Below, piece after piece: positions 12,652-25,826 of a DNA stretch of 64,000 bases. The first letter of the stretch is position 1. Each line of letters starts with the position of its first letter. The DNA is from Eubacterium ventriosum. GTDB taxonomy: Bacteria > Bacillota > Clostridia > Lachnospirales > Lachnospiraceae. The DNA is taken from assembly GCF_025150745.1 (NCBI RefSeq), contig NZ_CP102282.1, positions 817,501-881,500 of the forward strand, in the 5' to 3' direction. Position numbers and translations under genes: made by a program. The notes beneath the pieces are model-generated. The model searched no databases. It saw only the letters and a program-made list of their open reading frames with translations, and was not told the DNA's origin.

Positions 12652-13092
12652 ATGGATCGTTTAACAAAAGAACAACGTCATAGGAATATGAGTAACATAA
12701 AAAACAAAGATACAAGTATTGAGATTAAACTAAGAAAAGCATTATGGGAAAAAGGGTATCGATACAGGAAGAACTATAATAAGCTTCCGGGAAAGCCGGA
12801 CATTGTTCTCACTAAGTACAAAATTGTAATATTTTGTGACAGTGAATTTTTTCATGGAAAGGATTGGGAGAAACTAAAGTTACAGTTAAAAAAAGGAAAA
12901 AATTCAGAATTTTGGATTAGTAAAATATCTAAAAATATAGAAAGAGATGAAAAGATTGAAAAAGAACTGGAATTTATGGGATGGACAGTTATTAGATTTT
13001 GGGGAAAAGATATAAATAAAAATGTTGATGAATGCATTAAAGTTATTGAGGAAAAAATATTCGATAATATGACAGCTGATGATTCATTATAG
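12652..13092 (+). CDS. vsr: Very short patch repair (Vsr) mismatch endonuclease
   Basis: A 146-residue Vsr-family nickase that cuts beside the T of T:G mismatches produced when 5-methylcytosine deaminates. The N-terminus TKEQRHRNMSNIKNKDTSIE is typical. The catalytic segment YNKLPGKPDIVLTKYKIVIF contains the Asp that binds magnesium (D51 in E. coli Vsr). VIFCDSEFFHGKDWEK holds the His/Asp region, and EFMGWTVIRFWGKDI the conserved C-terminal strand-helix. It lies directly before the cytosine methyltransferase gene, its usual partner, with a 19-base gap to that gene's start. Confidence 0.9.
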   Translation: MDRLTKEQRHRNMSNIKNKDTSIEIKLRKALWEKGYRYRKNYNKLPGKPDIVLTKYKIVIFCDSEFFHGKDWEKLKLQLKKGKNSEFWISKISKNIERDEKIEKELEFMGWTVIRFWGKDINKNVDECIKVIEEKIFDNMTADDSL

Positions 13093-13111
13093 GACAGAGA
13101 GGAAATATAAG

Positions 13112-14179
13112 ATGAAATATAGAGCAATAGATTTATTTGCCGGAATTGGTGGAATAAGAAAAGGATTTGATAATGCTTTTGGGAAAAATATAGACACGGT
13201 ATTTGTGAGTGAATGGGATGAATATGCACAGAAAACATATAGAGCAAATTACAAAGATAAGTTTGAAATAGCAGGAGATATCACGAAGATTGATGAAAAA
13301 GATATACCTGAGTTTGATATATGCTTAGCAGGATTTCCGTGTCAGGCATTTTCACTTGCAGGAAAGAGAATGGGATTTGATGATGATTACAAGGGAATGT
13401 GCAGAGGTACATTATTTCAGGATGTTGTAAGAATATGCGAATATCACAAACCAAAAGTTATTTTTTGTGAAAACGTAAAAGGTCTTACGATACATGACAG
13501 AGGAAGAACTTTTAAAGTTATTAAGAGTGCCTTTGAACAGATAGGATATACGGTATACGATAAGGTTTTAAACAGCAAAGATTTTGGTGTTCCGCAGAAT
13601 AGGGAAAGAATTTATATAGTTGCATTCAGAAAAGATATTAATTCTGAAAATTTTGAATTTCCGGTAGGAAATAAACCTGATACATGCATACGTGATATTA
13701 TGGAAGAGCAGGAAGTAAGTGTTAAATATTATCTGTCGACAACATATATAGAAACTTTAAAGAGACACAAGGCAAGACATGCGGCCAAAGGAAACGGATT
13801 TGGTTATGAAATAAGAGATTTAGATGGAAAAGCAGGAGCTATTGTTTGTGGTGGTATGGGAAGAGAAAGAAATCTCATCATAGATAATAGACTTACAAAT
13901 TTTGTACCTGTTACTCATATTAAGGGTGAAGTTAACAGGGAAGGAATTCGTAAAATGACACCTAGAGAATGGGCAAGACTGCAGGGATTCCCGGATGATT
14001 TTAAGTTAGAATTGGCGGATACACATTTGTATAAACAGTTTGGTAACAGTGTAACTGTTAATGTCATTGAAGCAATAGCAGATAAAATTAAAGTGATTCT
14101 TGATGCAGATGAAAAGGCAAAATCCGTTGTAGAAACTGTAAATATCAGGCAAACAAAGAAAGAACGCGCTGTAGGATAA
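13112..14179 (+). CDS. DNA (cytosine-5)-methyltransferase, HpaII-type
   Basis: A 355-residue C5-methyltransferase that protects host DNA from the partner nuclease. The motifs appear in order: I DLFAGIGGIRKGF (8-20), IV GFPCQAFSLAG (74-84, catalytic C77), VI FCENVKG, VIII QNRERIYIVAF, the variable target-recognition region, IX around REWARLQGFPDDF, and X GNSVTVNVIEAIADK. All key residues are present. The start at 13112 follows GAGAGGAAATATAAG; an upstream in-frame start at 13079 overlaps vsr and lacks a site. The companion endonuclease is of the HpaII family, so the target is probably CCGG (inferred). Confidence 0.93.
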   Translation: MKYRAIDLFAGIGGIRKGFDNAFGKNIDTVFVSEWDEYAQKTYRANYKDKFEIAGDITKIDEKDIPEFDICLAGFPCQAFSLAGKRMGFDDDYKGMCRGTLFQDVVRICEYHKPKVIFCENVKGLTIHDRGRTFKVIKSAFEQIGYTVYDKVLNSKDFGVPQNRERIYIVAFRKDINSENFEFPVGNKPDTCIRDIMEEQEVSVKYYLSTTYIETLKRHKARHAAKGNGFGYEIRDLDGKAGAIVCGGMGRERNLIIDNRLTNFVPVTHIKGEVNREGIRKMTPREWARLQGFPDDFKLELADTHLYKQFGNSVTVNVIEAIADKIKVILDADEKAKSVVETVNIRQTKKERAVG

Positions 14180-14201
14180 TCAGTAGGGGAGGTACAGTAA
14201 T

Positions 14202-15272
14202 ATGATAAAAGGCAATAAAGGTGAATGGAGTGAACTATATGTGTTATTGAGACTGTTGGCATATGGCAGGATTTATGCAGCGGATGATCAGGTTAAAAAG
14301 ATTGAAAATGTATATTTTCCAATTCTTAAAATAATGCGTGAGGAAGTAAAAGGAAAAAAACTTGAATATAGGATAGGAACTAATGAAGACATTGAAATCT
14401 ATAATAATGATATTAAGATAAAAAGCGTTAGTAGGGAACAGTTAAAAAAAGAGGCGGACTATTTATATAATGAAATAGTAAATATGAAGAGTAGATCATT
14501 TGAGATTGAACATACAGAAAAATTTGCAAATGCTATTGAGTGTTATCGTCTTGCAGCACCATCTAGTGACAAAACAGACATTACAATGCAAATACATGAC
14601 ATACATACAGGATTTGAGCCAATATGTGGGTTTAGTATTAAATCGGAATTAGGGAGTGCTCCAACACTTCTAAATGCATCAGGTGCAACGAATTTTGCAT
14701 TTGAGGTCGAAGGAATTAATGATGAACAGATGGAACAGATAAATGCACTTAATAATCCAAAGAGCAAGATAATGGACAGAATGGAACAGATTTTTTCGCT
14801 TGGAATAGTTAAGTATTCAAAACCATTAAATGAAAAATTTGCAAATAATCTAATGCTTATAGACAGCCGTATGGAAGAGATAATTGCACAGGTGCTAATT
14901 TGTTATTACCGTGATAACATAAGCGATTGTAAAGATATTATAAATAAGCTCGAAGAGGAAAATCCTCTTAGATTTCCAAACAAGGGGTTTTATGAATTCA
15001 AATTCAAGAAGTTTTTATGCTCAGTTGCATTGGGTATGATGCCATCTAAGGAATGGGACGGACACGATGAAGCTAACGGAGGTTACATAATTGTATCTTC
15101 AGACGGAGATGTGTTAGCATATCATATATACAACAGAGATTATTTTGAAAAGTATTTATTGGATAATACCAAACTGGAAAGAGGTTCAACAAGTAGACAT
15201 GGTTTTGCATCCTTGTATAAAGAGGATGGCAAAATATATATGAATCTTAATTTGCAGGTTAGGTTTAAGTAG
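14202..15272 (+). CDS. HpaII-family type II restriction endonuclease
   Basis: A 356-residue protein, the same length as R.HpaII (about 358). The start MIKGNKGEWSELYVLLRLLA matches the HpaII-family N-terminus. Further family features are ECYRLAAPSSDKTDITMQIH, which contains the acidic active-site region, and FSIKSELGSAPTLLNASGAT, with a catalytic-type xExK/IKSE element. The end is WDGHDEANGGYIIVSSDGDV. It cuts unmethylated DNA, by family CCGG. It lies 22 bases after the methyltransferase with GGGGAGGTACAGTA as ribosome site. The set is HTH-vsr-M-R, in the usual order for controlled expression. Confidence 0.85.
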   Translation: MIKGNKGEWSELYVLLRLLAYGRIYAADDQVKKIENVYFPILKIMREEVKGKKLEYRIGTNEDIEIYNNDIKIKSVSREQLKKEADYLYNEIVNMKSRSFEIEHTEKFANAIECYRLAAPSSDKTDITMQIHDIHTGFEPICGFSIKSELGSAPTLLNASGATNFAFEVEGINDEQMEQINALNNPKSKIMDRMEQIFSLGIVKYSKPLNEKFANNLMLIDSRMEEIIAQVLICYYRDNISDCKDIINKLEEENPLRFPNKGFYEFKFKKFLCSVALGMMPSKEWDGHDEANGGYIIVSSDGDVLAYHIYNRDYFEKYLLDNTKLERGSTSRHGFASLYKEDGKIYMNLNLQVRFK

Positions 15273-15337
15273 AAAGTATAGAGGATAAATATAAAATTGT
15301 GAAGAATATAATTGTATAGAAAGAAGGGATATTGTAT

Positions 15338-15889
15338 ATGGTTGTTTCTGAAGAATTAATTGAAATCATAGATAGTGACATAAAGACATGTGAGTTAGCA
15401 ATTCAAAGGGGTAATAAAGATGAATTGTGGGAAGTTCATAGTAGATTGGTGAGTAAATATTCTAATATTATTGACGGGTTTGCAAAAAATTTACAGAGTC
15501 TTTTTTATGATGAAAGCGGAAATATTAAGAAGCAAAATCTTGAAACCATGAGACAGAAGTTAGTTTTATTTAAAGCTATGGGATATAAAAATATATTTTC
15601 TAGTGATGCAAAGGGCACACAGGTTAGTGTTAATAATGTTAATCAAAATACACTATTAAATAATATAAGCTTTGAAGACGCACGTAATAACATAGAAAAT
15701 ATGACGGCCTTAAGAGAAGAAGAAATAAACGACATTTTTGAAAAAATAGATGAGATAGAAAAATTAGTTCTATCAACAGAAAGAAAAACAAAAAAATGGG
15801 AAAAGGCAAAGCCGATTATAAAGTGGATTGCTGATAAAGGTGTAGATGCAGGAATGTTAATGTTGCAATTATTACTTAAAATCGGATAG
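15338..15889 (+). CDS. Unknown coiled-coil protein in the TIR/Thoeris operon
   Basis: A 183-residue protein with no recognised family. Residues 1-60 and 105-155 are helical and charged (for example ALREEEINDIFEKIDEIEKL, a likely coiled coil). The centre is polar with an Asn-rich stretch (SVNNVNQNTLLNN). The C-terminus KWIADKGVDAGMLMLQLLLK is amphipathic to hydrophobic and could touch the membrane. It starts after AAAGAAGGGATATT; an upstream TTG at 15332 is less likely. The TIR gene starts 25 bases downstream, so this protein may sense or assemble with it. That is inference from position only. Confidence 0.5.
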   Translation: MVVSEELIEIIDSDIKTCELAIQRGNKDELWEVHSRLVSKYSNIIDGFAKNLQSLFYDESGNIKKQNLETMRQKLVLFKAMGYKNIFSSDAKGTQVSVNNVNQNTLLNNISFEDARNNIENMTALREEEINDIFEKIDEIEKLVLSTERKTKKWEKAKPIIKWIADKGVDAGMLMLQLLLKIG

Positions 15890-15914
15890 ATTATAGGAAA
15901 TTGAGGAAAAATAT

Positions 15915-16763
15915 ATGTTTGCAGGTTTTAATTTAGAAATTAATGAACATTTTTTTTGTTCACAGAAGAAAACATTTTCTGAATATCAAAAAATAGGAAA
16001 AGAACATCTTGCTTCGCAAGGCAAAGGTGTGGAAAAAGCGTTAAGTGAATATATCAAGAACAATATTGTGGATGGATCAGAAATACAAAAAGATTGGTTT
16101 CCAGAGATTGAAGCAGATATATTTTTATCACATTCAAGTAAGGACACAGAATTAGTGAATGCCATTGCAGGATGGCTTTATGATTCATTTGGTTTAAAGT
16201 GTTTTGTTGACTCGAATGTTTGGTGTTATGCTGGTAATATTGCTGATATGCTCAATTCAGACTACAGTAATAAGAGGTCAGATGTTGATGGTGGATATTT
16301 ATATGATCATAAAAAATGTCTTAAAGTTTCTGAGCATGTTAATACAATGCTGAATGTTGCGCTTCAAAAAATGATTGATAAAAGCGAAAGTGTTTTTTTG
16401 ATTAATACGGATAAGTCTATTCATATAAATCGTGATTCAAATAGCATTGATTTGACATATTCTCCATGGATATATATGGAATTAGTGTGCAGTGAAATTG
16501 TTCGAAAGAAACCATTGTCTTTTTATAGATATGATAAAAAAGTATGTCATGCAATTAGTGAAAAATATCAATTTGATGAAATTAACAATGATTTGACAAT
16601 ATCATATAATGCGCCGACTCAATATTTAATAAAAATAAATCAAGATGTTTTGAAAAAATGGAAAAATCAATTTAATGGGAAACATCCTTTTCCGTTAGAT
16701 ATATTGTATAATGATTATTTTGAATCTGAGGTAGAAAAGAACAAAAAATATTTTAAATATTAA
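15915..16763 (+). CDS. TIR-domain protein (TIR_2 type) of the defence operon
   Basis: A 282-residue protein. An N-terminal helical segment of about 70 residues precedes a TIR domain that begins EADIFLSHSSKDTELVNAIA and continues GLKCFVDSNVWCYAGN. The segment SPWIYMELVCSEIVRKKPLS carries the Glu expected for NAD+-processing TIRs. Such domains make cyclic ADP-ribose-type signals or destroy NAD+ after phage recognition. It differs from the two smaller DUF1863-type TIR proteins downstream, so this operon may have more than one trigger feeding a single effector. The ribosome site is weak (TTGAGGAAAAATAT). Confidence 0.75.
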   Translation: MFAGFNLEINEHFFCSQKKTFSEYQKIGKEHLASQGKGVEKALSEYIKNNIVDGSEIQKDWFPEIEADIFLSHSSKDTELVNAIAGWLYDSFGLKCFVDSNVWCYAGNIADMLNSDYSNKRSDVDGGYLYDHKKCLKVSEHVNTMLNVALQKMIDKSESVFLINTDKSIHINRDSNSIDLTYSPWIYMELVCSEIVRKKPLSFYRYDKKVCHAISEKYQFDEINNDLTISYNAPTQYLIKINQDVLKKWKNQFNGKHPFPLDILYNDYFESEVEKNKKYFKY

Positions 16764-16771
16764 TAGGAGTT

Positions 16772-17272
16772 GTGGAAAAAGATATGTGTAGAGAGGATAA
16801 TATAATCAAAATTGAAGAAATTCATAAAGAAATTGATTTAATTCAAGCATGTATAACAAGAATGGCTCAAAATTCTTTTAAAATTAAAGGATGGTTTGTG
16901 TCAATTTATGCGGTGATTTTAGCGTTGCTTCCTGAAAAAGTAAATGTTTTTTTAGTGTGTATCACATTGATTGCTGTTAATATCATTTTTTGGTATTTGG
17001 ATGGTTTTTTTCTTAGAACAGAAAAAGTATATAGAAAAATATATGATTGGGTATTAGAAAAAAGACCACAAAATAACAGAGAACTAATGTATCAGTTAAA
17101 TCCAAGTAAATTTATTGGGAAAATAGAGAAGGTCGAATCTGTATGGCAAGTTATGTGGTCAAGAACATTGCGATGGTTTTATTTAATTCCGCTTGTAATT
17201 GTAGTAATTGTATTTGCAATTAAGTGTGGACCAACTTTGTGTAAAATAATACAATTTTGTGCATATAAGTAA
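16772..17272 (+). CDS. Small membrane protein paired with TIR genes
   Basis: A 166-residue protein. An N-terminal amphipathic helix (IIKIEEIHKEIDLIQACITR) is followed by two membrane segments (about 43-56 and 60-78, ending FWYLDGFFLRTEKVYRKIYD) and a third near the C-terminus (WFYLIPLVIVVIVFAIKC). This SLATT-like layout, with the WYLDxFFLRxEKxYRKxY pattern, recurs in Firmicutes next to DUF1863 TIR genes and fits a pore or anchor role. The start is uncertain: GTG at 16772 is very close to TAGGAG, and ATG at 16784 is 14 bases away. The next TIR gene starts 18 bases after the stop. Confidence 0.6.
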   Translation: MEKDMCREDNIIKIEEIHKEIDLIQACITRMAQNSFKIKGWFVSIYAVILALLPEKVNVFLVCITLIAVNIIFWYLDGFFLRTEKVYRKIYDWVLEKRPQNNRELMYQLNPSKFIGKIEKVESVWQVMWSRTLRWFYLIPLVIVVIVFAIKCGPTLCKIIQFCAYK

Positions 17273-17290
17273 TATGAAAGAAAGTGGACT

Positions 17291-17857
17291 ATGGGAAAAA
17301 AGATATTTGTTTCGTATAAATATAAAGACAATAATGTGAAGGAATTACCTAATGTAACGCAACCAACATGGCCGTGTGATTACGTTGATTATATTAGGAA
17401 TAATGTTTTAAAAGATGATGATATTTATAAAGGTGAAAATAGTGATGAAGATATTTCTGCATGGAGCGAAGATAAAATTTGGAATCATTTAAAAGGAAAA
17501 ATCTATGATAGTACAATCACTATTGTTTTGGTGTCACCTAATATGAAAGAAGATTGTAAATGGCAACGATCACAATGGATTCCGTGGGAAATTAGTTATT
17601 CGGTTAAAGAAACGACCAGGAATAACCGAATGAGTCATCGGAATGCTCTTCTTGTTGTAGTTTTACCAGATAAATTAGGATCATATAAATATTATGACAA
17701 AAAAAACCTTTTTCCAATATTAAAAAGTAATATTGATAATGGGTATGCTTATGTTGTTACATGGGAAGATTTTTTGAAATATGCAAGCACAGATATAAGC
17801 ATTGCATTTGGCCATAAAGATAGTACACCATCATATGAAATTGTGAAATCTCTTTAA
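17291..17857 (+). CDS. thsB: ThsB-like TIR protein (DUF1863/MTH538 type)
   Basis: A 188-residue protein with a DUF1863 TIR-like domain from its first residues: KKIFVSYKYKDNN is strand A, IYDSTITIVLVSPNMKEDCK strands B and C, and WIPWEISYSVKETTRNNRMS the helix with the conserved Glu used by ThsB enzymes to convert NAD+. HRNALLVVVLPDKLGSYKYY completes the fold. In Thoeris, ThsB senses infection and makes an ADP-ribose-derived messenger that activates ThsA. It lies between the membrane protein and the ThsA-like gene, which fits. About 86 bases separate it from thsA. Confidence 0.8.
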   Translation: MGKKIFVSYKYKDNNVKELPNVTQPTWPCDYVDYIRNNVLKDDDIYKGENSDEDISAWSEDKIWNHLKGKIYDSTITIVLVSPNMKEDCKWQRSQWIPWEISYSVKETTRNNRMSHRNALLVVVLPDKLGSYKYYDKKNLFPILKSNIDNGYAYVVTWEDFLKYASTDISIAFGHKDSTPSYEIVKSL

Positions 17858-17942
17858 TATATTTAAAATTAAAAGTAATGACTATTTTGAAGTAAGATGT
17901 AATATATCTGGGATAAAAACAATGAAAGAAAAGAGGATTAAC

Positions 17943-17954
17943 ATGAATAAGTAA
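17943..17954 (+). other. In-frame nonsense codon at the start of thsA
   Basis: ATG AAT AAG TAA. After the TAA the same frame continues ISSFIDRYVKEIKNNSAAM into the conserved protein, which aligns with the N-terminal helix of known ThsA proteins. Either a point mutation or a base-call error is possible. Confidence 0.7.
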
Positions 17955-18008
17955 ATATCTTCATTTATTGATAGGTATGTAAAAGAAATCAAAAACAATA
18001 GTGCTGCA

Positions 18009-19394
18009 ATGTTTATTGGAGCAGGTTTTTCTAAAAGTGTGGGATATGTTGATTGGAAAAATTTACTTAAAGATGTAGCAGATGATTTGGGGTTGGATAT
18101 AGATAAGGAGTATGATTTAGTTTCTTTAGCTCAGTATTGTTATAATAAAAATAGAAATAGAAGTATTATTAATGATTTGATTTTGGATGAGTTTAATAAA
18201 GAAAAAGGGATTGATGAAAATCATCGTATTATCGCACGTTTACCGATTTTTACATATTGGACAACAAATTATGACTCCTTGATTGAAGACGCATTAGAGG
18301 AAGCTCAAAGGATTGTAGATATAAAGTATAATAATAAACAACTTTCTCTTACAAAACAACACAGGGATGCCGTTATATATAAAATGCATGGAGATAAGAA
18401 CAACCCTGACGAAGCGATATTAATAAAAGATGATTATGAAAAATATTATAGAGAGCATGCACAATTCATTACGGCATTAAGTGGAGATTTGATTTCAAAA
18501 ACATTTTTATTTATCGGATTTAGTTTTTCAGATCCAAATATTGATTATATATTAAGTCGGGTTAGAATTGATTATGGAGAGCAAAATAATAGACAGCATT
18601 ATGCAATTATGCGTAAAGTAAATGAAAAAGATTATGATAATCGAGCAGAGTATGAGTATGCACAACGTAAATATGATTTTTTTATTGAAGACCTTAAACG
18701 CTATAATATACGTGTTCTCCTTATTGATGAGTATGAAGAAATTACGGATATTTTAAATGAAATAGATAAAAGACTGAATCATAATAATGTTTTTATTTCA
18801 GGTAGTGCTCAAGAATATGGCGAGTATACTGAAAAAGAGGCTTTAGAATTTATCGAATCATTAAGTAAAGAATTAATTTTGCAGGATTTTAATATAATTT
18901 CGGGTTTTGGTTTAGGTGTGGGTAGTTCTGTTATTATTGGTGCATTACAAGAAATATATATGAAACGAAAAAGTATAAATGAGGATAGATTACTTTTACG
19001 CCCGTTTCCACAAGGAATAGAGGACAATAATAGTCGGCAGATTTTATGGAAAAAGTATAGAGAAGATATGATTTCTAGGTCTGGTGTGTCAATCTTCTTA
19101 TTTGGTAACAAATTAGTCGATGGAGAAATTGTATTGGCTAATGGTGTGGAATCAGAATTCGAGATTGCTTTAGAACGACATTGTTTGATAGTTCCTGTTG
19201 GATGTACAGGGTATATGGCGAAAGAAATATGGAAAAAAGTGGATTCAAATATGTCAGACTTTTATACGAATGTTGATGATGTATTGATTGAAGCATTTAA
19301 AAAATTAAATTCTAAATCTAGTAAATCAGAACTAATACCTGACATTCTTTCGTTTATTAAATTGTTTGAAAATGGCAAATATAGTCCAAGATAA
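18009..19394 (+). CDS. thsA: ThsA-like SIR2-SLOG NADase, with the native start interrupted by a stop codon
   Basis: This is the effector of Thoeris. The SIR2-type NADase domain comes first: FIGAGFSKSVGYVDWKNLL is the NAD loop, FTYWTTNYDSLIEDAL carries the catalytic Asn, and VIYKMHGDKNNP the catalytic His. FLFIGFSFSDPNIDYILSRV closes the domain. The C-terminal SLOG domain (from NNVFISGSAQEYGEYTEKEA to FLFGNKLVDGEIV) binds the cyclic ADP-ribose signal. The order and spacing match Bacillus cereus ThsA closely. The best ribosome site (AAAGAGGATTAAC) serves an ATG at 17943, but codon 4 of that frame is TAA. The first later ATG is 18009, which would remove the first helix before the NAD loop. Activity may be lost or translation may reinitiate. 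Confidence 0.85.
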   Translation: MFIGAGFSKSVGYVDWKNLLKDVADDLGLDIDKEYDLVSLAQYCYNKNRNRSIINDLILDEFNKEKGIDENHRIIARLPIFTYWTTNYDSLIEDALEEAQRIVDIKYNNKQLSLTKQHRDAVIYKMHGDKNNPDEAILIKDDYEKYYREHAQFITALSGDLISKTFLFIGFSFSDPNIDYILSRVRIDYGEQNNRQHYAIMRKVNEKDYDNRAEYEYAQRKYDFFIEDLKRYNIRVLLIDEYEEITDILNEIDKRLNHNNVFISGSAQEYGEYTEKEALEFIESLSKELILQDFNIISGFGLGVGSSVIIGALQEIYMKRKSINEDRLLLRPFPQGIEDNNSRQILWKKYREDMISRSGVSIFLFGNKLVDGEIVLANGVESEFEIALERHCLIVPVGCTGYMAKEIWKKVDSNMSDFYTNVDDVLIEAFKKLNSKSSKSELIPDILSFIKLFENGKYSPR

Positions 19395-19412
19395 AATGGG
19401 AGGAAAGAAAAT

Positions 19413-20024
19413 ATGGCACATAAGACATTTATTTCGTATAAATGGAGTGAAGCACAGGATTTACGAGATGATATTATAACTGCTCTTGGTGAGGATGCTA
19501 CATACTATAAAGGTGAAACAAGTGAATCACCAGATTTGACGGATACATCGACTGAAAATATTAAAAAGAATTTGAAAGATATGATGTATGATACTTCTGT
19601 TACAATTGTGATTTTATCACCCAACATGAAAGAGAGTAAATGGATTGACTGGGAGATTGAATATTGTTTGAAAGATATAACGCGTAAAGATAGAACTTCA
19701 CATACAAATGGAGTTGTAGCTGTTATTATGAAAGTGGATAATAGTTATGAGTGGTTCAAAAAAAGTGGAACAAATTGTCATGGTTCTTCGACGGTATCAT
19801 ATGAATTAGATAAAGTGTTCGACATTATTTCACAGAATCATTTTAATTCAAATCCGGAACAATGGCATTGTGATAAATGTAAAACATATGATTGGTTAAA
19901 TGGTTCGTATATTACTTTTGTTGAAGAAGAAACATTTTTGGATGATCCGGAAAAATATATTAATAATGCGTATGATAAAAGTGAGAATGATGCGAGTGGA
20001 TATGATCTTGTAAAACAAAGATAA
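19413..20024 (+). CDS. thsB: Second ThsB-like TIR protein
   Basis: A 203-residue DUF1863-type TIR protein. AHKTFISYKWSEAQDLRDDI is strand and helix A, MYDTSVTIVILSPNMKESKW strands B and C, and IDWEIEYCLKDITRKDRTSH the helix with the conserved Glu. HTNGVVAVIMKVDNSYEWF follows. A small C-x-x-C (WHCDKCKTYDW) lies in the C-terminal third and may bind zinc. It begins 18 bases after thsA with GGGAGGAAAG as ribosome site. Thoeris loci often carry several ThsB genes that recognise different phages. It is only distantly similar to the copy at 17291, so this is an old duplication or separate acquisition. Confidence 0.82.
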   Translation: MAHKTFISYKWSEAQDLRDDIITALGEDATYYKGETSESPDLTDTSTENIKKNLKDMMYDTSVTIVILSPNMKESKWIDWEIEYCLKDITRKDRTSHTNGVVAVIMKVDNSYEWFKKSGTNCHGSSTVSYELDKVFDIISQNHFNSNPEQWHCDKCKTYDWLNGSYITFVEEETFLDDPEKYINNAYDKSENDASGYDLVKQR

Positions 20025-20550: not shown

Positions 20551-20591
20551 GGCTCCAATGTGATTAATTAGTCACATTGGAGTCTTTTTTT
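20551..20591. terminator. Hairpin at the element end, terminator-like
   Basis: GGCTCCAATGTGA (20551-20563) pairs with TCACATTGGAGTC (20572-20584), followed by TTTTTTTC. On this side it lies at the 3' end of the transposase remnant. Confidence 0.7.
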
Positions 20592-21301
20592 CTTTATAGG
20601 AAAGACCGTAGTTGGCGTTCTGGTAAATTGAAAACAGCCTGCCGGGAGGCGGGCATAGATTCCACCATATCGAATCATTTTAAAGTGCTTTTCAGGGATG
20701 TGTCTGATTAACCGTTTTATGAAATCCATAGTAGGGAGAGTTTCTTCGACATACTTTTCGTCTTCGTGACGATTGTAATGGAAGGTAACGAACACGCCGT
20801 CATAGCTGTAGCCACCTTCAAAAATCAGGCAGTGAATGTGAGAATTCCATTTGAGATCCCTGCCAAAAGTATGAAGAACCATGATATAACCGGGAGTGAA
20901 GTTTTTGGATTTGTTCATTTTAAAGAACATATGGGAAATAACACTGCAACAGAATGGAAAAAACAATGAAGCAGAGTTCTGTCCTGAAGGGAAAAATCAC
21001 GGAGATTTTCATCAATCGTGAAGACGCAGTGTCTGTGATGAACGTTAACCAGTTTAAAAGACATAGATGTAGTACGTTCCATGGAATACTTGTTACCGCA
21101 AGAGGGACAGAAACGGCTGTGGCAGCGAAAAGGAATGAACTTAAGATTTCCACAGTGTGGGCAGCCGTACATAGCACCACCAAAAGGAGGATCACCACAG
21201 TTTATCATCTTTTCGATATTTTCCATCTCAGAAGATCTGTGATGAAGAGTATATTTAATTTCTTCATAATAGTCGGTAAAGATTCTTTGTAAGATATTCA
21301 T
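20568..21301 (-). pseudogene. IS91-family transposase, frameshifted and internally deleted
   Basis: The start MNILQRIFTDYYEEIKYTLH (ATG at 21301-21299) leads into the zinc-binding domain MYGCPHCGNLKFIPFRCHSR and FCPSCGNKYS. Near 20950 the frame shifts, and the protein continues VISHMFFKMNKSKNFTPGYI, then LHTFGRDLKWNSHIHCLIFE with the HxH catalytic motif. After EGGYSYDGVF the central part is missing: it jumps to HYNRHEDEKYVEETLPTMDF and KHFKMIRYGGIYAR, which belong near the C-terminus. The region carrying catalytic tyrosines is damaged, so the element is dead. Confidence 0.8.
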
Positions 21302-21341
21302 ATGTCTATTATGCAGAAAAATGAAGCAAAAGAAAAGCCCA

Positions 21342-21359
21342 CCCCTCAAGATTGAGGGG
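21342..21359. repeat. Tight palindrome at the IS91-like end
   Basis: CCCCTCAA-GA-TTGAGGGG is an 8-bp perfect stem with a two-base centre, 41 bases upstream of the transposase start. It is the likely origin end of the element. Confidence 0.5.
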
Positions 21360-21382
21360 CGAGGGAGTTGAATAGGCAAAGC

Positions 21383-22009
21383 ATGTTTTTATTAGAGGTA
21401 GTACATGACTCAAAATATTTACTTTCTGATAATTATGAAACAATTAAGGCTACAGAAATTTTGGCAAAAGAAGGTTTTGTTGTTATGCCATATATGTATC
21501 CTGACTTAAATGCGGCAAGAGAATTAGCAGATGTGGGAGCAGCATGCGTAATGCCATTAGGTGCCCCAATTGGTTCAAACAAAGGATTGGCAACCAAAGA
21601 TTTTATTCAAATTCTTATAGATGAAATAGATTTACCAATTACTGTTGATGCGGGAATTGGACGTCCATCTCAGGCATGTGAAGCCATGGAAATGGGAACA
21701 ACAGCAGTAATGGCAAATACAGCAATTGCAACAGCAGGAGATGTTCAGGTGATGGCAGAAGCATTTAAGAAGGCAATTGAAGCGCAAAAACTAGGAGCAA
21801 CCTATATAAGTGCAGGTCATATATTTGCTACTGACTGCAAAAAAGATTTACCACCAAGAGGATTGGAGTTTTTAAAAGAGGTTTGCAATAGCGTTACAAT
21901 TCCAGTTTACGCAATTGGAGAAATAAAACTTTCAGATGTACAAATGGATGAAATAATCAAATGCGGTGCCAAAGGCGGTTGTATAATGTCTGGTATGATG
22001 AGCCTATAA
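21383..22009 (+). pseudogene. thiG'-'thiE deletion chimera
   Basis: The first ~135 residues are the C-terminal two thirds of thiazole synthase Thi[61 protein letters not shown] and [20 protein letters not shown]. After KKAIEA the sequence changes in frame to the C-terminal part of thiamine-phosphate synthase Thi[21 protein letters not shown], then [11 protein letters not shown] and [11 protein letters not shown]. In the common order thiS-thiG-thiH-thiE, one deletion would remove the end of thiG, thiH and the start of thiE. The ThiG N-terminus is also lost to the IS91-like element. The product cannot perform either reaction, so thiamine genes here are dead. Confidence 0.85.
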
Positions 22010-22045: not shown

Positions 22046-22054
22046 TGCTATAAT
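22046..22054 (+). promoter_or_regulatory. Extended -10 promoter of the double-protease gene
   Basis: TGCTATAAT fits an extended -10 (TGnTATAAT), 49 bases before the start codon. AAAAGGAGATTTT is the ribosome site. Confidence 0.5.
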
Positions 22055-22102
22055 GAATATATAATTAAGGTGTAAAAGAATAAATGATTAAAAGGAGATT
22101 TT

Positions 22103-25100
22103 ATGAAAAAAGGGTTTAGTATAATCATGGCGTTTGTTACGGTTATGACAATGCTTTTTAGTGGCGTAACTTTTGCTGATGATACGAATGAAAATACAGA
22201 AAATAAAACAAAAGAAAGTAATTTTACAAATCTTATAGTATTTGCAAGATTTTTAGATGAAGATGAATTTATAGATAATTCTTATAATGGGGAATCTGTT
22301 AGAAAAATTACAGATAATACTTATAACAGTGCATATTTTAATGTTTCGGATTATTATGAAATTGCGTCAAGGGGAAGTCTTAAGATAAATAGCGTGTATT
22401 TGTTTAATAAAGGTGGTTCAGTGCAGTTATCTCATACAAGAGGATACTATGCAGAGTATAGTGAAGAGAATCCTGAAGGTTACAGGGACAACGGAGAGAG
22501 AGCAGAGCGTATGTACGAATTAAAAACAGACTGGTCTGAATCTATAAACAGAGCTATATCAGCGGGTAATGTGATTACAAATTATGATGGTACAAAAAAG
22601 TACAACTTTTCTGAACTTGATAAAAACAATGATGGGGTAATCGATGCAATCACCATTATTTATAAAAATACAACTCAGAGTATCTCTGTGGGTTGGTCCT
22701 CACCTTTGTGGAATTATAAGGATTATGCAGATTACGTAAAAATAAATGCAGATGGAAAAACAATTACAAGTAAAAACTATGTACAGGTAACAAATTCCTA
22801 TAATTATTTATACAAGGATAATCGGGAAAACGTGATTTTGCCTATGGCAGTGGCAACTCATGAAATGGGGCACATTTTAGGATTTAAGGACTTGTACAAT
22901 AGTTCAAATAGTTCGCCGGTATATTATATGTCTGCAATGGCAAAGCATATGTCACCTGTGCCACAGTTTATATCTGTAAAAGAAAGAGAAGCAAAGGGGT
23001 GGCTTACATCTGACAATGTTAAAACAATTTATCAAAATGGACAGTATACCTTAAAGGAAGCATCGACTAGAGGAGATTCACAGATAGTCGGATACAAATT
23101 AAATTTAAAAGGAACCAATAAAACACTGTACTTAGAATATAGAAATTTTGGCACAGGTGGTAATAAGTATGATTGTCAGTCAAAAGAATTGTATAAAACA
23201 GATGGAACGAAGCTAAAAGGATTGATAATTGGTTCAGGACTTGTTTGTTATTTGGTGGACAAAGACACAAAATTCCCAAACAATATGGGATGCGTTGCAG
23301 GAAAGTGGAATTATGAAACATTAGGTGGCACATATGCAACAAAATCTGACGCACCATTAAAACTGAATCAGAGCTTGGAAATAACCGATGATATGTATGT
23401 TGAAGTCACAAACATAACTGATAATCAATTAACATTTAAAATAGAAGGTGATTTTGAAGAACAACAGACTGAAATTAAAGAAATCTCAGACAGGGAAAAA
23501 TATGATGGAAGGGACGATGGCATAGTAACACCAGTAAAAGATCAGGGAGATACCAATTTGTGTTGGGCATATTCAAGCATTGCAGCAGCAGAATCATCCA
23601 TTTTGAAAAGTGGAATTGATCCTACAGTAACAAAAGATACATTATCATTAAATCCGATGGCGGCAGCTTATAGAGTTTTTAAGAGAGAAAGCGATCCATT
23701 GGGAAATACAGATGGAGACTGGCAATCAGTAAATTATTTGACGCAGTCAGGAGACCCACTAAAAATTGCCAAGTTATATTCAATGTGGTGGGCACCGGTA
23801 TCGGGTAATGTGGTTACGACAAACCCATATGAAAATCCATCATATAGATTTGAAAATGCAATTTATATACCTGAAAACAAATCAAATCCGGAAGAATACA
23901 TTAGGTCAATAAAAAAAGCCATAGCAAAATATGGGGCAGTAACATTTCAGTACAACAATGCAAGAGAAACATTATACTACAATTCAAAGAATGAACAGGG
24001 CAGTACAATTTCTCCACATGCATGCACAATCATTGGCTGGGATGACAATATCCCATCAGACAAATTTGTGCCAAATGGTGCTACCCAAAAGGGTGGCTGG
24101 CTTGTAAAAAACAGTTACAAATCATTGGAGTATTTTTGGCTATCATATGACAATACAAGCAGTTGTTCTTATGCATTTTCATTTGCACCAAAGGACAAGT
24201 ATGACTTTAATTATTACTATGATGGAAGCATGGGCGATTTCCCATTAAGAAAAGATAAGTCAGTGGCAAATGTGTTTAAAGCAAAAAAATCTGATGATTT
24301 AAAAGATGAATATATAAAAGCAGTAAATGTGGCTATTGGTGGTGAAAATGTAACCGCTAAAGTGGAGATATACAAAAATGTAGATTATCCTTATGGCGGA
24401 CAGGACAATGTACCAGTTTCAGGTGGTTACCTGGCAAATACTACAACGGCGTATTTTGAAAACAGTGGATATGTAACAATAGAACTGAATCAGCCGGTAA
24501 AGATTGAAAAAGACCAATGGTTCTCTGCAATAGTAAGTGTTTCAAATGAAAATGGCGACGCCAAAATAATGACTTCATATAAAAATGGCAGGGAAATGTC
24601 ATATATAAACAATGGTAGTGGATGGACACAACTTAAAAATTATGTAGGAAGAATAAAGGTATACACAAAATTGGAGAACAAAGTGGAGAATCCAACTATA
24701 GAAGTGCCTACAACGGAAGCACCAACCACAGCGGAAGTGACAACAACATCAGAGCCAACAACGGAAGCACCAACCACAGCGGAAGTGACAACAACATCAG
24801 AGCCAACAACAGAAGCACCAACCACAGCGGAAGTGACAACAACACTAAAGCCAACAACGGAAGTGACAACTACATTAGAACCAACAACTAACGGAAAAAC
24901 TACAACTCGTGTTGACGGTGTAAATAAAAAGAGTTTAAAGCAAACAAAAATTCTAAAAGTAAAAAAACTTAAAAATAGAAAAGTGAGAATTACTTTTAAA
25001 AAGGTAAGTAAGGCTAAAATATATCGGATACAGTATTCAACTGACAGAAAATTTAAGAAAAACGTAAGAACAAAACGTACAGGAAAAACTACATATCTGT

Positions 25101-25219
25101 TAAGAAAATTACGTGTTAGAAAAAGATATTATGTAAGAGTGAGAGCAATAGTTGGAAAAGACAAAGGCAAATGGAGTAGTGTAAAATCTTTTAAAGTGAG
25201 TAAGCGGTTTTATAAGTAA
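22103..25219 (+). CDS. Secreted double protease: M6-type zinc protease fused to papain-like C1 protease
   Basis: A 1038-residue exported protein. A signal peptide (1-25, ending SGVTFADD) comes first. Residues ~45-450 are an M6/immune-inhibitor-A-like metalloprotease with zinc motif HEMGHILGFKD (H253, E254, H257). Residues ~465-700 are a papain-family protease with VTPVKDQGDTNLCWAYSS (Q481, C487), H639 in SPHACTIIGWDD and N670 in GWLVKNSYKS, so both active sites look complete. A C1-associated lectin-like beta domain follows (~705-850), then a 48-bp-repeat Thr/Pro linker (TTEAPTTAEVTTTSEP), and a Lys-rich FN3-like module (950-1038) shared with other proteins in the window. It is a single gene with its own promoter. 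It probably acts on proteins at the cell surface or in the gut lumen. Confidence 0.85.
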   Translation: MKKGFSIIMAFVTVMTMLFSGVTFADDTNENTENKTKESNFTNLIVFARFLDEDEFIDNSYNGESVRKITDNTYNSAYFNVSDYYEIASRGSLKINSVYLFNKGGSVQLSHTRGYYAEYSEENPEGYRDNGERAERMYELKTDWSESINRAISAGNVITNYDGTKKYNFSELDKNNDGVIDAITIIYKNTTQSISVGWSSPLWNYKDYADYVKINADGKTITSKNYVQVTNSYNYLYKDNRENVILPMAVATHEMGHILGFKDLYNSSNSSPVYYMSAMAKHMSPVPQFISVKEREAKGWLTSDNVKTIYQNGQYTLKEASTRGDSQIVGYKLNLKGTNKTLYLEYRNFGTGGNKYDCQSKELYKTDGTKLKGLIIGSGLVCYLVDKDTKFPNNMGCVAGKWNYETLGGTYATKSDAPLKLNQSLEITDDMYVEVTNITDNQLTFKIEGDFEEQQTEIKEISDREKYDGRDDGIVTPVKDQGDTNLCWAYSSIAAAESSILKSGIDPTVTKDTLSLNPMAAAYRVFKRESDPLGNTDGDWQSVNYLTQSGDPLKIAKLYSMWWAPVSGNVVTTNPYENPSYRFENAIYIPENKSNPEEYIRSIKKAIAKYGAVTFQYNNARETLYYNSKNEQGSTISPHACTIIGWDDNIPSDKFVPNGATQKGGWLVKNSYKSLEYFWLSYDNTSSCSYAFSFAPKDKYDFNYYYDGSMGDFPLRKDKSVANVFKAKKSDDLKDEYIKAVNVAIGGENVTAKVEIYKNVDYPYGGQDNVPVSGGYLANTTTAYFENSGYVTIELNQPVKIEKDQWFSAIVSVSNENGDAKIMTSYKNGREMSYINNGSGWTQLKNYVGRIKVYTKLENKVENPTIEVPTTEAPTTAEVTTTSEPTTEAPTTAEVTTTSEPTTEAPTTAEVTTTLKPTTEVTTTLEPTTNGKTTTRVDGVNKKSLKQTKILKVKKLKNRKVRITFKKVSKAKIYRIQYSTDRKFKKNVRTKRTGKTTYLLRKLRVRKRYYVRVRAIVGKDKGKWSSVKSFKVSKRFYK
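24704..24890 (+). repeat. 48-bp tandem repeat coding the Thr/Pro linker
   Basis: About three near-identical 48-base units (GAAGCACCAACCACAGCGGA, then AGTGACAACAACATCAGAGC and onward) plus decayed partial units. They encode TEAPTTAEVTTTSEPT. Copy number is likely variable between strains. Confidence 0.85.
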
Positions 25220-25348
25220 TTGACAGTTATTCCATATTTGTTATAATACCGTCACTTGGTAGCGCAATGGTAATGTCAATTTACACACTTACAGATGCAA
25301 TTGAGGGTGCGGACATTTTCTTGGACTATCTAAGTGACCAATCCAAGT

Positions 25349-25453
25349 CTATGTCTGTACTCTATAGGACTCAAATATCCTAATAGTTTCAGTTACAGAC
25401 TCCGTTTGATGATATATCCGTAGTGCAATATCTTTTTGTTCTTTTGAATACAT
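25349..25453 (-). pseudogene. IS transposase N-terminal remnant (IS3/IS150 OrfA-like)
   Basis: On the minus strand MYSKEQKDIALRIYHQTESV continues TETIRIFESYRVQT and stops. The start resembles the HTH of IS3-type OrfA proteins (KEQ-xxALxxYHQTxSVTE-xIRxLGYP). After the stop, in another frame, the sequence TWIGHLD resembles the next family segment. A GGAGCC-type ribosome site precedes the ATG. Only the first 35-50 codons remain. Confidence 0.5.
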
Positions 25454-25826
25454 AAAAAGGCTCCTTTCTTTAACTACGGCACAATTTACCATTTATCCGA
25501 TAAACTGAGCTTGTACTCTCAGATTGGAGCGTAACCGTCCTACCGTACTGAGGTAGCACCAATATAGTTTAACATATTTGTCGAATGTTATCTAACAATT
25601 CTAACATTTTACGCCAAAATCAAACCCTTATTTTCTCTATGATATAATTAATGTACAAGTAAGATACTTGTTCGATTGAGTATCTGCTTAAACTTTTTCC
25701 TCCAAATTATTAAAAAAAAGTAAGTTCCTTAAAGTAGAAGGGACTTATTTTTTATTATCTTTTTTATTTTTATATTCATATTTCATCATATTAAAAAGGA
25801 ATAAAAAAAATAAGGAGGATACATAA
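25454..25826. other. Gap holding a promoter and a structured leader
   Basis: TATAAT at 25643-25648 is followed by CAAGTA-AGA-TACTTG (25655-25669). This overlaps a second possible stem, AGATAC (25662-25667) with GTATCT (25680-25685), so the two compete. A terminator follows at 25721. No gene was seen from 25454 to 25826. Confidence 0.35.
25721..25754 (+). terminator. Terminator in a leader, possible attenuator
   Basis: TAAGTTCC (25721-25728) pairs with GGGACTTA (25740-25747, one G-U), followed by TTTTTTATT. It lies between the TATAAT at 25643 and the small gene at 25827, with no gene upstream to end. Confidence 0.55.

Follow-up and report, generated by a model that had tools for sequence, protein, structure and literature searches.

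Can one secreted protein of Eubacterium ventriosum hold two complete proteases of unrelated classes and, if so, how would they act together? This question is raised by a gene located within the window, by which we mean the whole stretch of 64,000 nucleotides analyzed here (NZ_CP102282.1, positions 817,501 to 881,500). A sequence-only reading had proposed that this gene encodes a single chain with both an M6-type zinc site and a papain-type (C1) catalytic set. The gene (22103-25219, + strand) is one open frame of 1038 amino acids with no internal stops, and the host genome is assembled as a single contig of 2.86 Mb. Both protease sites were in fact found within the uninterrupted frame. The motif HEMGHILGFKD begins at residue 253, and the papain set lies in QGDTNLCW at 481 (C487), HACTIIGW at 639 and VKNS at 668 (N670). 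An internal start near the linker was also considered and rejected, as no clear ribosome-binding site accompanies any of the ATG/TTG codons there (395, 425 and 431). The features of the gene and its product are collected in Table 1, and the domain evidence for the fused frame is far beyond chance. The C-terminal region, described before as a basic module, is indeed basic but it corresponds to an Fn3 domain (PF00041), whose match was above the Pfam cut-off. A search of the host's own genome matched this module at about 33 other places, and it is present on many secreted host proteins, including the neighbouring GDSL esterase.

Table 1. Features of the fused protease gene and its product (positions of the window).
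Feature	Residues	Position	Strand	Basis
Extended -10-like promoter element TGCTATAAT, upstream of the gene (weak candidate)		22046..22054	+	By eye; not flagged by consensus scan
Ribosome-binding site AAAGGAG, ATG 5 nt further on		22091..22097	+	By eye
Signal peptide MKKGFSIIMAFVTVMTMLFSGVTFA	1-25	22103..22177	+	By inspection
M6-type metzincin domain and C-terminal beta-sandwich	39-452	22217..23458	+	Profiles, model, structure alignment
Zinc site HEMGHILGFKD, followed by Met-turn M279	253-263	22859..22891	+	Invariance in M6 alignment
12-residue junction QQTEIKEISDRE	~453-464	23459..23494	+	M6 end IEGDFEE; C1 profile from 465
Papain-type C1A cysteine protease domain	465-690	23495..24172	+	PF00112, model, Cwp84 fold
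Lectin_like domain (PF18560)	704-858	24212..24676	+	Pfam (7.5e-12); Cwp84 fold
Thr/Pro-rich repeat linker PTTEAPTTAEVTTTSE	862-940	24686..24922	+	Translation
Basic Fn3 domain	951-1027	24953..25183	+	PF00041 (2e-5); own-genome search

The NCBIfam model of the M6 domain, TIGR03296, matched residues 68-349 (E 5.8e-18) with a score of 65.8 bits, below the curated cut-off of 110.8; the N-terminal half is a divergent M6-like branch placed outside the curated model. A profile search of PDB sequences led from this half to InhA2 (4yu5, E 2.7e-17). In the first structure run the M6 part was poor, having only three M6 rows aligned, and for this reason no placement of the M6 domain with respect to the C1 domain is claimed. 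Residues 27-455 were then modelled by AlphaFold2 with a 20-row M6 alignment that left out the Lachnospira eligens row, giving a pLDDT of 78 and a pTM of 0.83. With Foldseek this model gave no significant match in the PDB, but VIA-align run on the Foldseek candidates did match it to 4yu5, with Z 20.3 and an rmsd of 3.6 A over 357 residues at 18% identity, the aligned range starting at residue 11 of the model and residue 160 of InhA2. The next VIA-align entries beyond InhA2 had Z of at most 9.1 and came from further metzincins, among them the O-glycopeptidase OgpA. The M6 half keeps every residue that is invariant across the 20-21 aligned M6 sequences (H253, E254, H257, D263, Y265, P272, M279, E345 and R347), with the HExxHxxGxxD motif and the Met-turn present. 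Its nearest relatives are stand-alone proteins of Roseburia inulinivorans (52% identity), genome G436 (56%) and L. eligens (54%). This range of identity, together with the InhA-type fold, sustains the M6 assignment. The model predicts an InhA-type M6 metzincin fold for residues 27-455, whose zinc-dependent peptidase activity is putative.

For the C-terminal half, Peptidase_C1 (PF00112) matched residues 465-673 with an E value of 1.9e-7 and 31.8 bits against a gathering score of 20.7. The lectin-like domain expected behind it was recovered as Lectin_like (PF18560) directly after the C1A domain, at 704-841 (E 7.5e-12, 46.1 bits against 27). The residues Q481, C487, H639 and N670 are in papain order and aligned with those of the C1 family. 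The pLDDT of the C1 and lectin model was mostly 80-95, and residues 463-858 aligned with Cwp84 (4d59) over 350 residues covering both domains, with Z 35.3 and 21% identity; cathepsin and papain chains aligned with the C1 part with Z of about 15 over about 185-190 residues. A papain fold is thereby predicted for the C1 part by the model, and its cysteine peptidase activity is putative. Taken with the InhA2 match, these results agree with the reading that a single secreted chain combines proteases of two unrelated classes, each folded in its own way; neither fold was missing when the models were checked.

The C1 and lectin half is a member of a common family whose proteins normally lack M6. Among other members observed, a C1 and lectin-like peptidase of Mycoplasmopsis gallopavonis (L116:2863-5079) is 32% identical to this half of the window protein. 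Two long C1 and lectin proteins of genomes G578 (L091:473-4504) and G647 (L093:343-5754), of 1344 and 1804 amino acids, have about 950 and 1285 N-terminal residues, respectively, without any Pfam match.

M6 and C1 proteases had been held to be normally separate, and in all the other genomes examined they were on separate proteins. Among about 990 distinct genomes searched, the window gene was the sole frame with M6 and C1 plus lectin, so the architecture is not common; this survey covered genomes of the family, the order and the phylum, and an archaeal control, Methanosarcina acetivorans, matched both families. At family level, an M6 alignment search found the M6 domain in 18 of 397 genomes, and apart from that of the window none of these 18 had a C1 domain in the same frame. 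At order level the fused profile matched 98 of 295 genomes, nearly all through the C1 and lectin part, and the window gene alone spanned both parts; no M6 domain was found in 20 long C1 and lectin frames from this order. At phylum level (299 genomes), 18 M6 places and 21 C1 places overlapped at the window gene alone. The fusion was not found in plasmids or IMG/VR, nor among phage records when these were queried with the C1 and lectin half alone. A description of an M6 and C1 fusion was not found in the papers searched either, and a survey of the papain family leaves peptidase M6 unmentioned and cites a fusion with lectin as the only one (PMC10380794). Both halves are of known kinds, but their combination looks new and rare.

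Co-occurrence of both families in the same genomes was also considered as functional evidence and discarded, since M6 and C1 plus lectin were present in 18 and 43 genomes of the family and together in 2 at the thresholds used, which is about what chance would give. A hint at a functional link comes instead from adjacency. In genome G152 (L089:9357-15471) an M6 gene (L089:9357-12677) is followed 10 nt on by a gene encoding C1 and lectin, in a setting of glycosyltransferase-like genes, and both proteins end in Big_2 and four DUF4214 modules. A pair of this type was not seen in the sister species G987, the sole one with a complete flank; two other sister contigs end early.

The junction between the halves is exact. 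The M6 part ends in IEGDFEE and is followed by 12 residues and then by C1. In the alignment with the stand-alone M6 protein of G436 (FRIEGDFEEHIHTGGEATC in G436, FKIEGDFEEQQTEIKEISDREKYDGRDDGIVTPVKDQG in the window) both agree through GDFEE. Past this point the G436 protein continues with a Cys-containing segment, an Ig/X2-like domain, a T-rich spacer and a membrane segment, whereas the window protein continues with C1.

The region around the gene is varied. Upstream, a Thoeris-type defence cluster (13079-20024, +) includes ThsA (SIR2-STALD, 18009-19394), three TIR ThsB-like genes (15915, 17291 and 19413) and a PDC-M50A candidate (16772), and is adjoined by a type II restriction-modification pair (13079-15272). 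It is followed by a broken IS91-type transposase (20568-21379, -), in two overlapping frames with Zn_Tnp_IS91 and Y2_Tnp pieces, and by a hybrid remnant (21368-22009, +) in which the C-terminal part of ThiG (profile 92-230) runs into that of a TenI/ThiE protein (105-179). The position of this hybrid beside the transposase remnant makes it a likely deletion scar. A perfect 12/12 sigma-70-type promoter with an extended -10 begins immediately behind the stop codon of the protease gene (25220-25753, +), and a terminator-like hairpin lies downstream of it at 25715-25753. No Rfam match and no long open reading frame were found between them; the segment may be a small RNA, or the promoter may have belonged to an element since lost and pointed outward from it. 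On the opposite strand (25349-25492), a frame of 47 amino acids, MYSKEQKDIALRIYHQTESVTETIRI, resembles by eye the beginning of OrfA from an IS3-type transposase and had no Pfam match. Further downstream (26418-61152, +) a long run of secreted glycan-acting genes encodes laminin-G-like proteins, a GDSL esterase with Fn3, a GH31 with F5/8, a solute-binding protein, permeases, DUF5696 and GH3.

With about an even prospect of being right, we propose that the gene encodes a secreted and surface-retained compound protease, predicted from its architecture, in which two known modules are exactly joined to give two specificities on one scaffold. The chain starts with an M6 metzincin that resembles InhA and is of the type found as stand-alone proteins in Roseburia and Lachnospira, but is deprived of the C-terminal anchor tail of these relatives. 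A Cwp84-type C1A and Lectin_like unit fills the place of that tail, and a T-rich spacer followed by the host's usual basic Fn3 module completes the protein. Both catalytic sites would be active, and the lectin-like and Fn3 parts may tether the enzyme to the cell surface or to a glycosylated substrate. The two specificities would then be directed in parallel at a single target, for instance a surface protein or glycoprotein, with neither domain serving as activator of the other. The absence of a second genome with the fusion among those searched counts against this proposal, as do the divergence of the C1 half, which may be weak or inactive, the chance-level co-occurrence of the two families and the absence of the G152 gene pair from G987. 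If both sites work, the protein would be a ready-made surface protease of two specificities. To our knowledge, natural proteins with two catalytic peptidase domains of different classes seem rare.

Successive processing of one substrate by the two domains, one suggestion made from the sequence, is a putative function. Activation of the C1 domain by the M6 domain, which had been suggested as well, is not supported as it was stated, because the roughly 12 residues from the M6 end to the C1 start contain no C1 propeptide to be removed. There is likewise no room for an InhA-type propeptide between the signal peptide and the catalytic domain, either in the window protein or in its M6 relatives, and the lack of the usual propeptides in both enzymes makes it less likely that M6 simply takes off a propeptide. 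A cut by M6 within the linker of about 12 residues would still be possible. Built on such a cut is an explanation that we consider unlikely, in which the M6 domain would occupy the place of the Cwp84 propeptide, shut the C1 cleft and cut the linker in cis or in trans, leaving mature C1, lectin and Fn3. In Cwp84 the mature N-terminus, S92, precedes the catalytic Cys, C116, by 24 residues and corresponds to about residue 463 of the window protein, the end of the linker; autocatalytic activation of Cwp84 has been reported as unlikely, so that another protease is needed (PMC4089489). However, besides the shortness of the linker and the lack of any propeptide-like segment, the host has a C1 and lectin paralogue with Cu_amine_oxidN1 directly before C1. 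This places M6 where an N-terminal neighbour belongs, and a folded domain at this position is nothing unusual and does not have to act as an activator. A self-contained protease pair, with M6 as both the latency and the maturation module of C1 and lectin by cutting the linker at about 463, is distinctly unlikely in our opinion. If the M6 half did mature the C1 half, a Cwp84-type protease could carry its own activator.

It is also doubtful that the M6 half is the working enzyme while the C1 and lectin half is decaying or binding-only and serves mainly as a targeting scaffold. This half is the most diverged of the 24 compared: measured against its 23 relatives, it is changed in 18 of the 43 strongly conserved columns of C1 and in 13 of the 28 of the lectin part, while the other rows have no more than 11 and 12. 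In addition, the NSWGxxFGxxG loop past the catalytic Asn has lost about five residues in length, and just before the catalytic His the window protein has Pro where the relatives have Asn. Nevertheless, the catalytic Gln, Cys, His and Asn are all kept, as would be expected if selection acts on catalysis, and the domain was modelled with good confidence. The remaining alternative, and the least likely, is a recent chimera that is neutral in function, or else a fault of the assembly, with no role of its own. The presence of the fusion in one genome only, and the IS91-type transposase remnants upstream in a rearranged region, would fit this very improbable reading. On the other hand, the 1038-residue frame is open in a single-contig genome, and GC3 is 0.27 in the M6 part, 0.29 in C1 and 0.27 in the lectin part. 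These values resemble each other and those of neighbouring genes, so none of the parts has the look of a fresh import. Moreover, the closest relatives found of the C1 part share 31-38% identity with it, and if it diverged after the joining the fusion is not recent.

Comparison of the proposed compound protease with known systems places each half separately. InhA2 (M6; PDB 4yu5 and 4yu6) has the same metzincin and beta-sandwich fold, HExxHxxGxxD motif and Met-turn, but it lacks a C1 domain, and there is no space for a propeptide in the window protein. The M6 proteins of R. inulinivorans (L029:5947-8208) and L. eligens (WP_012740400.1, on a megaplasmid) are also without a propeptide, and differ in carrying a Cys-containing segment and an Ig/X2-like domain after the M6 part instead of C1; the L. 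eligens tail, like that of G436, adds a T/E-rich spacer and a C-terminal membrane segment. The stand-alone paralogue of the host (G000:C1:2713374-2714567, L049) shares C1 and Lectin_like with the window protein, and has an N-terminal membrane segment and Cu_amine_oxidN1 (62-167) in the place of M6, with C1 at 180. Cwp84 of Clostridioides difficile (PDB 4ci7 and 4d59) has the same C1A and lectin-like core in the same order and is likewise secreted and surface-retained, retention being predicted for the window protein. Cwp84 carries a propeptide (33-91) and three PF04122 cell-wall-binding repeats (PMC4089489). In the window protein M6 precedes C1, and the T-rich linker and Fn3 occupy the C-terminal end, with no Pfam match to PF04122. 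Although it has a Cwp84-type core, the window protein is not an orthologue of Cwp84, because the propeptide before C1 and the PF04122 repeats are both missing. Finally, the adjacent genes of G152 have the same two protease classes as the window protein but encode two proteins, the M6 one being of a distant subfamily; they represent an unfused pair with a common kind of tether.
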